DNA from: Chloroflexota bacterium
Lineage (GTDB): Bacteria; Chloroflexota; Dehalococcoidia; UBA2247; RBG-13-53-26
Assembly: GCA_003551705.1 (NCBI GenBank)
Contig: PUNJ01000200.1
Location: 1-45,019, forward strand
DNA length: 45,019 bases
Direction of reading: 5' to 3'
Positions 39,209-45,001 of this stretch are shown here, in pieces (position 1 is the first letter of the stretch; every line of letters starts with the position of its first letter). Made by a program: the position numbers and the translations under genes. Below the pieces are notes generated by a model, which searched no databases, was not told the origin of the DNA, and worked only from the letters and a program-made list of their open reading frames with translations.

Positions 39209-40579
39209 TTACTTGGAAGAGATTGTATGCAGGATGGCTTCTATGTTGTCGCGGACAGCCGAGTCACTGCTGGCGAGAGCGGAGATGCGCTGGTATCCAC
39301 GCTGGATGGTGGAATGGTCCCTGCCACCGAGGAGATTGCCTATATCCTGAAGTGGGGACCTGGCCTTTTCCCGGACCAGGTAGATGGCTATCTGGCGGGC
39401 CATAACCAGGTTGGAAGCCCGTTTCTTGTTCTGGAGAGATTCCACGGTTATGTTGAAGTGGTCCGCTACGGCATTCAGGATGGTGAGGGGATGAAGGCCC
39501 GGCGTATGATTGCGTTCTGGGTGTATGTGGCTGGTAAGCTGTAAGGCTTCCCTGGCCAACTCCAAGGTAAGGGGCCGGCACGTCATTTTGGAGTAGGCGG
39601 CTACTCTTTTGAGAAGCCCCTCCAGTTTCCGGACGTCAGTCTGTCGCTGGCCGGCCAGGAAGGATAGCGTGTCCATGCCGATAGAGATGTTGAGTTGTTC
39701 GGCCTTGGCCCTGAGTATATTGAGGCTGGTCTGGTGGTCGGGGTTCTGGACCTTGGTGACCAGGCCCCATTCCAGGCGCGAAGCAAGTTCGCACTTGAGC
39801 CAGTCCAGGTAATGCGGCGCCTGATTGCCTGTGATGACCAGCTGGCGGTTGTTCTGGTAGAGCTCGTCCATTATATGGTACAGGCTCGTTTGTGTCTGGT
39901 GCTTGCCCATCAGGAACTGTATGTCCTCAATGATAAACACTTGAGCGCCCATGTACCGCTGCCGGAAGTGATCGACAGTCTTTGCCTTGATCGCACTGAC
40001 GAACTCGTTGGTGAATTGCTCTCCGCTGGCATAGGCGACGTTGAGCCCATTCTGGACGGCCTCATTGCCGAGAGCGTGGGCAAGATGGGTCTTACCCAGG
40101 CCGGAAGCACCATAGATATAAAGAGGGTTGTATTCGCTACCGGGCTCTTCGGCAGCTCCGAGGGCGGCGGAAAAAGCCAGGCGATTGGAGTTTCCGACTA
40201 CGAAATCGCCGAAGGTATAGCGAGGGTTAAAGCAGGACAACTCGAGGGAGGACTGCATCCCCGCGGCGCCGCGCTTTGCGGAATCGCGGGCGTGGGCCGG
40301 ACGTTTTTCCGGGACGGTACAGATTTCGAACTGGACCTCGATACTCCGCCCTATGACGTTTATCAGGTTCTTATGGATGAGGGAGTAAAGCCGGAGTTCG
40401 AGCCATTCCTTGGCGAAGGCCTTCGGAGTCCCTACAACAAACAGGTTCTGATTGAAGCTGAGCCCGACGGTATCCTTGATCCAAGTGTCATAGTTGGGCT
40501 TGTTAACCTGCACCTGGAGGGCACCCTTAACGGTTTCCCAAATTTCGCTGGCTGGCCTTTCTGCTTTTTTATCGTACAT
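39209..40579 (-). CDS. dnaA: Chromosomal replication initiator DnaA
   Basis: 456 residues from ATG 40579; a TTG at 40594 is an alternative, and neither has a clear ribosome site. A 6-codon mini-ORF (40605-40585) ends 5 nt before the ATG and might couple initiation. DnaA domains: I (about 10-85, binds helicase), a short linker, AAA+ (about 110-330) with Walker A YGASGLGKTHLAHALGNEA, Walker B VFIIEDIQFL, and the Arg-finger-region ASRLEWGLV, then DNA-binding domain IV (350-456) ending in GGRDHSTIQRGYQ. Several hallmarks differ from typical DnaA (GGVGLGKTHL, DDIQFL, RSRFEWGL, GGRDHTT). It may be the main or a divergent second DnaA. Neighbours are not the usual dnaN-recF. Confidence 0.93.
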   Translation of the reverse strand: MYDKKAERPASEIWETVKGALQVQVNKPNYDTWIKDTVGLSFNQNLFVVGTPKAFAKEWLELRLYSLIHKNLINVIGRSIEVQFEICTVPEKRPAHARDSAKRGAAGMQSSLELSCFNPRYTFGDFVVGNSNRLAFSAALGAAEEPGSEYNPLYIYGASGLGKTHLAHALGNEAVQNGLNVAYASGEQFTNEFVSAIKAKTVDHFRQRYMGAQVFIIEDIQFLMGKHQTQTSLYHIMDELYQNNRQLVITGNQAPHYLDWLKCELASRLEWGLVTKVQNPDHQTSLNILRAKAEQLNISIGMDTLSFLAGQRQTDVRKLEGLLKRVAAYSKMTCRPLTLELAREALQLTSHIHPERNHTPGLHPLTILNAVADHFNITVESLQNKKRASNLVMARQIAIYLVREKARSPLQDIGNLLGGRDHSTIQRGYQRISALASSDSAVRDNIEAILHTISSK

Positions 40580-40658
40580 GATGCTTAGAAGCAAGCATAG
40601 AACATCCAGGTATTTCCACTCCTGAGGTGATGATGATTAGTCTCGGCGGAACTAGACT

Positions 40659-43368: not shown

Positions 43369-43578
43369 ATGAATGTGCCGAATCGGGCGGATATAAGGCC
43401 GGGATCGAAGGTCTTGATCGTTTTGAAGAGGGACCAGCGGTCCGGGAAGCTTACGGAAGGCGTGGTCAAGGACATCCTGACGAAGTCTGTGACCCACCCC
43501 CATGGTGTAAAGGTCCGCCTGGAGAGTGGTGAAATCGGGCGGGTGAAGGAAGTCGAGCCGGGAGCAATGTCGTCATGA
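43369..43578 (+). CDS. ywbE: YwbE-family small protein
   Basis: 69 residues from ATG 43369, with GGAGGG 9 nt upstream; a 10-residue longer frame is less likely. Full match in pattern to the YwbE/DUF2196 family: RADIRPGSKVLIVLKRDQRS, GKLTEGVVKDILTKS, HPHGVKVRLESGEIGRVKEV. These are short KOW/SH3-like beta proteins of unknown role, possibly RNA-binding. It begins a run with the NYN-LOTUS and ArsC-like genes, 60 and 121 bp apart, which may be one transcript. Confidence 0.92.
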   Translation: MNVPNRADIRPGSKVLIVLKRDQRSGKLTEGVVKDILTKSVTHPHGVKVRLESGEIGRVKEVEPGAMSS

Positions 43579-43638: not shown

Positions 43639-44373
43639 ATGGGTGAACAATCGGAGCAGCAACAACGGTTTGCAGTCCTGATCGACGGCGACAACGCTCA
43701 GCCGTCCCTTCTCAACCAGATACTGGCGGAAGTCAGCAGGGTGGGCCTGGCAACGATCAAGCGCATATATGGAGATTGGACCACTACCAACATGACTAGC
43801 TGGAAGAATGAGCTTCATAAGCATGCGATTCAGCCGATACAGCAATTCAGATACACGGTCGGTAAGAATGCAACAGACAGCGCCATGATCATCGACGCCA
43901 TGGATATATTGCACAACCGGCTTGTCGAGGGTTTCTGTATCGTATCCAGTGACAGCGACTACACCCGCTTGGCAACCAGGATCAGAGAGCAAGGGCTTTA
44001 CGTAATTGGGGTGGGACAGAAGTCTACTCCGGAGGCTTTCACTAACGCCTGTAATCAGTTCGTCTACTGTGAGAATCTGGTGGGTACCAAGGCAAAGGGG
44101 AAGAAAGCCAGGAACGGAGAGGAGCCTGATGTTGCCGACCCAAGGCCTCTTCTTGTGCAGGGATTGGAAATGGCTGCCAAGGAAGAGGAGTGGATTCTGT
44201 TGTCGACGCTGGGTCATGTTCTTCGCAAATTGAGTCCGGCCTTCGATCCGCGTTCATTTGGCTACAAGAAGCTGCAGTCGCTGATCAAAGATTACCCGGA
44301 GACGTTCGTACTCAAACTGGATGATTCCAAGACGCCCCCGGTGGCCTACATATCGTTGAAGGCGAGTCAGTAG
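43639..44373 (+). CDS. NYN-domain putative RNase with C-terminal LOTUS (OST-HTH) domain
   Basis: 244 residues. ATG 43639 has AAGGAAGGA upstream. The PIN-like NYN domain (about 8-140) carries acidic residues expected to bind metal: D16 and N19 in VLIDGDNAQ, D80 and D86 in ATDSAMIIDAMD, and D105/D107 in VSSDSDYTRL. A LOTUS/OST-HTH RNA-binding domain fills about 150-244 (EMAAKEEEWILLSTLGHVLR, FDPRSFGYKKLQSLIKDYP). Such LabA/DUF88-LOTUS proteins are thought to be RNA nucleases, perhaps in RNA quality control. Cytoplasmic. It precedes the Sec-containing ArsC-like gene on the same strand. Confidence 0.93.
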   Translation: MGEQSEQQQRFAVLIDGDNAQPSLLNQILAEVSRVGLATIKRIYGDWTTTNMTSWKNELHKHAIQPIQQFRYTVGKNATDSAMIIDAMDILHNRLVEGFCIVSSDSDYTRLATRIREQGLYVIGVGQKSTPEAFTNACNQFVYCENLVGTKAKGKKARNGEEPDVADPRPLLVQGLEMAAKEEEWILLSTLGHVLRKLSPAFDPRSFGYKKLQSLIKDYPETFVLKLDDSKTPPVAYISLKASQ

Positions 44374-44494
44374 AGGGCGGGGAGGTGTGGGGCAGGGGTG
44401 TCGGGCGCCGCAATCCTAGGCGTTCTTCACTCCATCCTTGACGAGAGAGGAGCGCCGGATGGCATAGATGCCCGTTCGGAGAGGAGGACAAGCT

Positions 44495-44845
44495 ATGGCC
44501 GCAAGGATCGACTTCTATTGCTGGGCAAAATGAACCACCTGCCGGAAAGCGAAGGAGTTTCTTTCGCAGAAGAAGGTGGAGTTCAACGACCGTGATTTCT
44601 TCAAGGAGCCTTTCAGCGAGGCTGAGATCAGGGAACTGCTAAAGGGCGGACCGGCTGCCGAGATGTTCAATTTCAAAAGCCCGAGCTTCAAGGAACTGGG
44701 CCTAGGCCGTGAAAACCTGAGTGATGATGACCTGATTGGGCTGATGCTGAAGGAGCCGAGGCTTGTGCGCCGGCCCGTAGTCCGCATTGGGGATGAGGTC
44801 TACTTCAGCGCCGGCACAGCCGTGCTGGAGGGGCTGGTGGGGTAG
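44495..44845 (+). CDS. ArsC/Spx-family thioredoxin-fold protein with selenocysteine (UxxC)
   Basis: 116 residues when TGA at 44531-44533 is read as selenocysteine (Sec13). ATG 44495 has GAGGAGG with a 7-nt spacer, so translation surely begins here. The N-terminus then reads FYCWAKUTTCRKAKEFL: beta-strand, U-x-x-C and helix, exactly the ArsC active-site layout, where relatives have CxxC with the first Cys catalytic. The frame continues unbroken into the rest of the family (FFKEPFSEAEIRELL, PAAEMFNFKSPSF, LMLKEPRLVRRPVVRI) to 44845. UGA is followed by a SECIS-like hairpin. It would be a redox or arsenate-reductase-like enzyme in the cytosol. Last of the YwbE-NYN-ArsC run. Confidence 0.85.
44535..44579 (+). 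promoter_or_regulatory. SECIS-like element of the ArsC-family gene
   Basis: After the UGA, outer stem CCACCT (44535-44540) with AGGTGG (44574-44579) and inner stem GCGAA (44549-44553) with TTCGC (44563-44567) present a 9-nt loop that begins GG (44554-44562), 20 nt after the UGA. This falls within the usual bacterial spacing and has the required loop G, but the loop lacks the GGUC core. Confidence 0.65.
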
Positions 44846-44848
44846 CCC

Positions 44849-45001
44849 TTAGTCCTCTTGCATAGCCCTGATTGTTTCCCTGAGGGATTCTATCTCATTT
44901 CTCAAAGCCTGGACCTTGCTGTATGCCGTACTGCCGAACAGGAAGCCCAGCATGCCGAGGCTGATGCCCGCCAGGGAGAAAACAAAAGCAATGGTATCCA
45001 T
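44849..45001 (-). CDS. Small single-pass membrane protein, 50 residues
   Basis: ATG 45001 has GAGGAGG 7 nt upstream. Residues about 3-24 (TIAFVFSLAGISLGMLGFLF) form one membrane helix; residues about 28-50 are charged and helical (KVQALRNEIESLRETIRAM). It is complete, ending 3 bp from the stop of the convergent ArsC-like gene. The size and layout suggest a membrane-anchored coiled-coil peptide. No family recognised. The ribosome site and composition support a real gene despite its size. Confidence 0.7.
   Translation of the reverse strand: MDTIAFVFSLAGISLGMLGFLFGSTAYSKVQALRNEIESLRETIRAMQED

Follow-up and report, generated by a model that had tools for sequence, protein, structure and literature searches.

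The window analysed here, a 45,019-nucleotide stretch of a Chloroflexota genome (contig PUNJ01000200.1), contains close to its 3' end a gene for a selenoprotein of the Spx/ArsC family, the single in-frame UGA of which is almost certainly read as selenocysteine (Sec). We regard its product as a stand-alone reductase with a UxxC active site that is neither a transcription regulator of the Spx type nor, probably, an arsenate reductase, and give this reading as a whole a probability of roughly 0.65. The evidence that the protein is a selenoprotein is strong, and comes from the conservation of the codon and of a hairpin downstream of it, from the Sec machinery of the genome and from the fold.

The gene and its in-frame UGA

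The reading frame opens with the ATG at 44495 and closes with the TAG at 44843-44845, both read from the window (Table 1). With TGA translated as Sec it gives 116 residues, and codon 13 is its only in-frame TGA; the sequence around it reads FYCWAK-U-TTCRKAKEFL, where it takes the first position of a CxxC motif of the Spx/ArsC type. The standard code, on the other hand, leaves an 89-residue ORF beginning at GTG 44576, without the active site. The preliminary description of this DNA had noted a strong ribosome site, had placed the ATG, the TGA and the end of the gene, and had predicted a 116-residue product with one TGA that a usual gene call would truncate to 89 residues; on re-reading the window these features and both lengths proved correct. 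Its assignment of the protein to the ArsC/Spx family stands at the level of the Pfam ArsC model (PF03960), which covers residues 9-102, on both sides of the TGA, with an E-value of 3.7e-15 and 56.4 bits (cut-off 24), but does not extend to ArsC proper, as by sequence the protein is nearer to Spx. Similarly, its proposal that Sec replaces the catalytic Cys is borne out insofar as homologs have Sec or Cys at the same codon, although it is Spx that shows such a CxxC pattern, the published Sec arsenate reductases having UxxS (PMC1088965). Given that the Pfam match spans both sides of the TGA, and that 55 of the 62 sequences compared below have TGA and seven have Cys at this codon, the continuation of the frame through the TGA goes beyond chance.

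Table 1. Coordinates of the selenoprotein gene and its elements in the window
Feature	Coordinates	Strand	Remarks
Ribosome-binding site AGGAGG	44482-44487	+	7 nt ahead of the ATG; read directly
Selenoprotein gene, Spx/ArsC family	44495-44845	+	116 codons plus TAG; TGA translated as Sec
UGA codon, Sec13, first position of UxxC	44531-44533	+	TGA in 55, Cys in 7 of 62 rows; aligns with Spx Cys10
Cys16 codon, presumed resolving Cys	44540-44542	+	Among 61 aligned members, Cys in 60 and Ser in one
SECIS-like hairpin	44549-44567	+	7-bp stem, 44549-44555 with 44561-44567; 5-nt loop 44556-44560, G at 44557

Relatives and the state of codon 13

A first search of 60 genomes, namely the window's own and 59 relatives, recovered matches in nine, the own genome included. 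Six of the eight others are full-length or nearly so, with a TGA in G019, G020, G036, G038 and G043 and a Cys codon in G044, while those in G029 and G052 are confined to the N-terminal part. These two short matches (L016 near 1510-1599 and L017 near 1504-1608) contain a TGA and may represent further glutaredoxin-like selenoproteins, of the UXX-star type. With eight aligned members as the profile, 73 of 393 genomes of the class match at 1e-6 or better. Eleven of these were dropped as partial matches, all but one of them covering the N-terminal half or less, and the 62 genomes retained comprise 55 with TGA and seven with Cys.

Codon 13 was read in 62 rows from 61 genomes, one of which has two copies. 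The one TGA genome without a row is G121, the gene of which is split over two frames. Left out of the count were L030 (identical to L026), L098 (reading frame split in two), the partly masked L027 and the ArsC-type L028 and L029. The codon is TGA in 55 rows, TGC in four and TGT in three, as returned by a script that sought a Sec codon first and otherwise a CxxC motif, and that could return only Sec or Cys. The homologs with Cys at residue 13 and matching flanks that the preliminary description had suggested looking for are thus present, and the in-frame UGA aligns with their catalytic Cys; Sec and Cys together account for all 62 rows. The second Cys of the motif is retained in all but one of the 61 aligned members, the exception being L097 (genome G307), in which a Ser at this position gives UxxS.

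In the phylum, 46 of 400 genomes match at 1e-15 or better, and the 13 loci read from outside the class comprise 11 with a TGA and two with a Cys codon. Within the taxonomic family of the source organism only one of ten genomes, its own, has the gene, which is therefore patchy in its presence. The possibility of a misplaced contig was considered and rejected: the six best matches of the DnaA gene at 39209-40594 of the window all lie in genomes of that same taxonomic family, which favors a correct binning of the contig.

A conserved hairpin downstream of the UGA

The preliminary description had proposed a bSECISearch of 44531-44580, and a conserved SECIS-like hairpin begins 15 nt after the TGA. 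The 55 TGA rows align without gaps over the 57 nt from the TGA, and 86.2% of the cells of the stem (columns 19-25 with 31-37) are paired in them. Two tests were applied to these rows, both partly dependent on the choice of the 7-bp stem, which was picked by inspecting the window and its relatives. Two-sided changes occupy 43 cells, whereas 500 shuffles average 12.7 and all stay below 43. All seven pairs are formed in 42 of the 55 rows; when synonymous codons were reshuffled 500 times, such rows numbered 0.43 on average and never more than 3. The latter procedure was used because the hairpin region codes for protein, and serves as a control for coding constraint. Slid versions of the stem show at most 24 two-sided changes. 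The number of pairs and the pair types with change are not above the shuffles, being reached by 314 and 62 of the 500, respectively. For the window's own row, the chance of seven of seven pairs under synonymous choice is 0.008. Further, G occupies the second position of the loop in 47 of the 55 TGA rows.

The loci from outside the class were fetched after the stem had been chosen and had no part in that choice. Six or seven pairs form in nine of their 11 TGA rows; their two Cys rows have five and four. In the Cys rows of the class, by contrast, the stem is no better formed than synonymous choice would lead one to expect, with 17 of 49 pairs (34.7% of the cells) against 18.4 expected, and none of the seven rows has all seven pairs. 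Counting against the hairpin, no more than four pairs form in 12 of the 55 TGA rows, and RNAalifold returns only five pairs, weakly, at -1.95 kcal/mol. Folded alone, the 55 nt from the TGA of the window are moderately unusual (z -2.62; four of 200 shuffles fold as well), whereas the 43 nt from the TGA are no more stable than their shuffles (z -0.61). The 55-nt fold also shows an extra outer stem, on which no conclusion is based.

Selenocysteine machinery

All four genes that the preliminary description had named for a check of the genome, selA, selB, selC and selD, were found: a tRNA-Sec with the anticodon UCA, selB and selA share one contig (C30), and selD lies on a second (C189). The selD gene (L101 4867-5793) has an in-frame TGA, and SelD is probably itself a selenoprotein in this genome. 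Across the class, SelB exceeds its cut-off in 251 of 393 genomes, which include 53 of the 55 genomes with the TGA form of the gene and 198 of the 338 others (Fisher p 1.8e-9); the seven Cys genomes are among the 338, and four of them have SelB. SelB was not found in the TGA genomes G106 and G257, which are 90% and 79% complete.

These observations bear on whether the TGA might not be read through at all, but be a genuine stop, an error in the sequence or the scar of a pseudogene, with at most the 89-residue fragment from GTG 44576 being made. The standard code does yield that ORF, but 54 other rows have this TGA too, with the frame preserved before and after it, the hairpin accompanies the TGA and is absent with Cys, and SelB co-occurs with the TGA genomes. 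Hence, we consider the lack of readthrough highly improbable.

A further alternative is that the UGA is read as Cys by a SelC-like tRNA-Cys. Contig C189 of the own genome does carry such a tRNA (L101 342-436), with T before the 3' end, and some SelC-like tRNA-Cys elsewhere carry a UCA anticodon (PMC7609411). However, the anticodon here is GCA, so that UGA is not read by it, the genome also has a true tRNA-Sec, with UCA, and the adjoining selB copy is only an N-terminal fragment; a Cys reading is accordingly exceedingly improbable. This fragment (L101 484-942) directly follows the tRNA and shares 87% identity with the full SelB on C30 across 84 residues; in the rest of its ORF the similarity has been lost. 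The same type of tRNA occurs at L136 1501-1595 and, on the minus strand, at L137 1499-1591, in genomes G012 and G004, and a yedF-like gene lies near it in the own genome and at L136. These GCA tRNAs resemble the selC* tRNA-Cys, for which the portion of the published account available to us gives Firmicutes, Thermodesulfobacteria, Nitrospirae and Proteobacteria, without naming Chloroflexota (PMC7609411).

Relationship to Spx and to arsenate reductases

Among solved proteins, the profile of eight members is nearest in sequence to Spx (4.5e-25), followed by ArsC-like proteins (1.5e-17); Sec13 stands opposite Cys10 of Spx in the alignment, and Cys16 opposite its Cys13. In a fold search, a structural model predicted from two sequences (mean pLDDT 83.1, pTM 0.71) retrieves Spx at ranks 1-3 and, with hardly different scores, a putative arsenate reductase at rank 4; hence, the fold alone does not clearly separate Spx from the arsenate reductases. 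Of the curated models, TIGR01617 (Spx/MgsR) is missed narrowly (73.3 versus a cut-off of 75.05 bits), while the protein falls far below both TIGR00014 (arsenate reductase; 47.4 versus 106.05 bits) and NF041106 (ArsC family (seleno)protein; 31.5 versus 85 bits). The last was rejected as a name for the family on this score and because none of the 393 class genomes passes its cut-off.

The affinity to Spx raises the possibility that the protein is a Sec version of this regulator, i.e., a Sec-Cys oxidant sensor acting on transcription through the C-terminal domain of the RNA-polymerase alpha subunit. Apart from the match to solved Spx and the near miss of TIGR01617, this would agree with the redox pair at positions 10/13, where all 61 members have Sec or Cys at the first position and 60 have Cys at the second, and with the retention of Spx Arg60 as Arg or Lys in 54 of 61 members and of Arg92 as Arg in all 61. 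The residues through which Spx acts tell a different story. Gly52 of Spx is required for the contact with RNA-polymerase alpha, and Lys62 is important for activation (PMC2801614); the former is kept in just eight of 61 members, the window protein having Pro, and the latter in none. The contact loop is shortened: of the two positions ahead of Gly52, one is absent from all 61 members and the other from 60. Additionally, the members are 106-118 residues long as opposed to the 131-132 of most solved Spx chains listed, which implies that the Spx C-terminus is missing. In comparison with Bacillus subtilis Spx (1z3e, 3gfk), its nearest solved sequence and top fold match, the window protein thus has an equivalent residue pair with Sec in place of Cys10, but has a shortened contact loop in a family that mostly lacks Gly52 and entirely lacks Lys62. 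We therefore view an Spx-type regulator as improbable.

Arsenic and the gene neighbourhood

The other alternative is a Sec arsenate reductase, in which Sec13 would attack arsenate in the manner of Cys12 of E. coli ArsC. It is favored by the membership in the Pfam ArsC family, the closeness of the fold to arsenate reductases and the presence in the own genome of Acr3, the one arsenite pump covered by the genome searches. Against this, the score for TIGR00014 is less than half of its cut-off, and the motif is UxxC, as opposed to the UxxS of the published Sec ArsC (PMC1088965). Further, among the 59 relatives Acr3 is found in none of the six with the gene but in 33 of the 53 without it (p 0.005); when the own genome is included the former figure becomes one of seven (p 0.036). 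On balance, an arsenate reductase appears unlikely, though it is not a negligible prospect.

No arsenic genes were seen among the neighbours looked at, which were those in the window and, by eye, those at the loci of relatives with flanking sequence. Just upstream in the window are a DUF2196 gene (43369-43575) and an NYN gene with an OST-HTH/LOTUS domain (43639-44373); an enoyl-CoA hydratase gene is a further neighbour, and a convergent 50-residue ORF on the minus strand (44849-45001) has the look of a single-pass membrane protein. None of these four gives a clue to function. In one genome group (f19) the shared neighbours resemble, as judged by eye, ispH, an MFS transporter, prs and secA.

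Apparent replacement of selenocysteine by cysteine

A tree of 61 members (the partial L099 being left out) and two outgroups, in which the base of the family is poorly resolved, requires four switches between Sec and Cys. A supported clade with 13 Sec rows also contains four Cys rows, all of a single genus (g180); the genomes of these four have SelB, while their hairpin is absent. This nesting within a Sec clade, together with the retention of SelB and the disappearance of the hairpin, suggests that Cys took the place of Sec in this genus.

Predicted mechanism and relation to known selenoproteins

The entry cd03032 is the Spx subfamily. Under it, 'Arsenate reductase 2' with UxxC was described in the 2008 Global Ocean Sampling survey with 42 Sec sequences (PMC2398784), and UxxS forms of Sec arsenate reductase go back to a 2005 report (PMC1088965). 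The mention in the preliminary description of Sec-containing ArsC-like proteins from metagenomes is thereby substantiated. Compared by motif and family description, the window protein is like the 2008 group in being an ArsC-family protein with UxxC, and unlike it in coming from a Chloroflexota genome as opposed to ocean DNA; with the 2005 proteins it shares the ArsC family and a Sec at the catalytic Cys, but differs from them in having UxxC. In a 2026 review, NF041106 is the entry for an arsenate reductase-like protein with UxxC (PMC13188914, Table 1), which is likewise ArsC-related, but whose model scores the window protein at the above 31.5 bits. The selenoprotein kind is thus already known, and the finding is less surprising on account of the 2005 and 2008 reports; the window lineage falls below the current curated models. 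Among the titles listed by literature searches, none dealt with the protein in Chloroflexota, though such a paper may exist.

In the mechanism that we favor, SelB charged with Sec-tRNA(Sec) would decode the UGA under the guidance of the in-frame hairpin and place Sec13 just before helix 1. The selenolate of Sec13 would then attack an oxidised substrate, such as a disulfide, a sulfenate or a similar oxidant, and Cys16 would resolve the intermediate as a selenenylsulfide, after which a cellular thiol system, such as thioredoxin, may recycle the protein. This chemistry is suggested by the motif, and a role as a thiol or oxidant reductase is the one we consider reasonably likely. The protein would act on its own, and not bound to RNA polymerase as a regulator of the Spx type, and would probably not reduce arsenate. 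A variant in which the Spx fold serves, beyond any enzymatic role, as a redox switch widespread in Chloroflexota, with Sec for the sensing Cys and oxidant signals passed to partners other than the alpha C-terminal domain, seems a long shot.

Although the family is present in 62 of 393 genomes of the class, the usual code offers only a fragment without the active site for the window gene, and the window protein lies under the two closest NCBIfam models, TIGR01617 by a little and NF041106 by a wide margin. The Cys forms of genus g180, moreover, look like a natural record of the replacement of Sec by Cys, one that could be tested at the bench.
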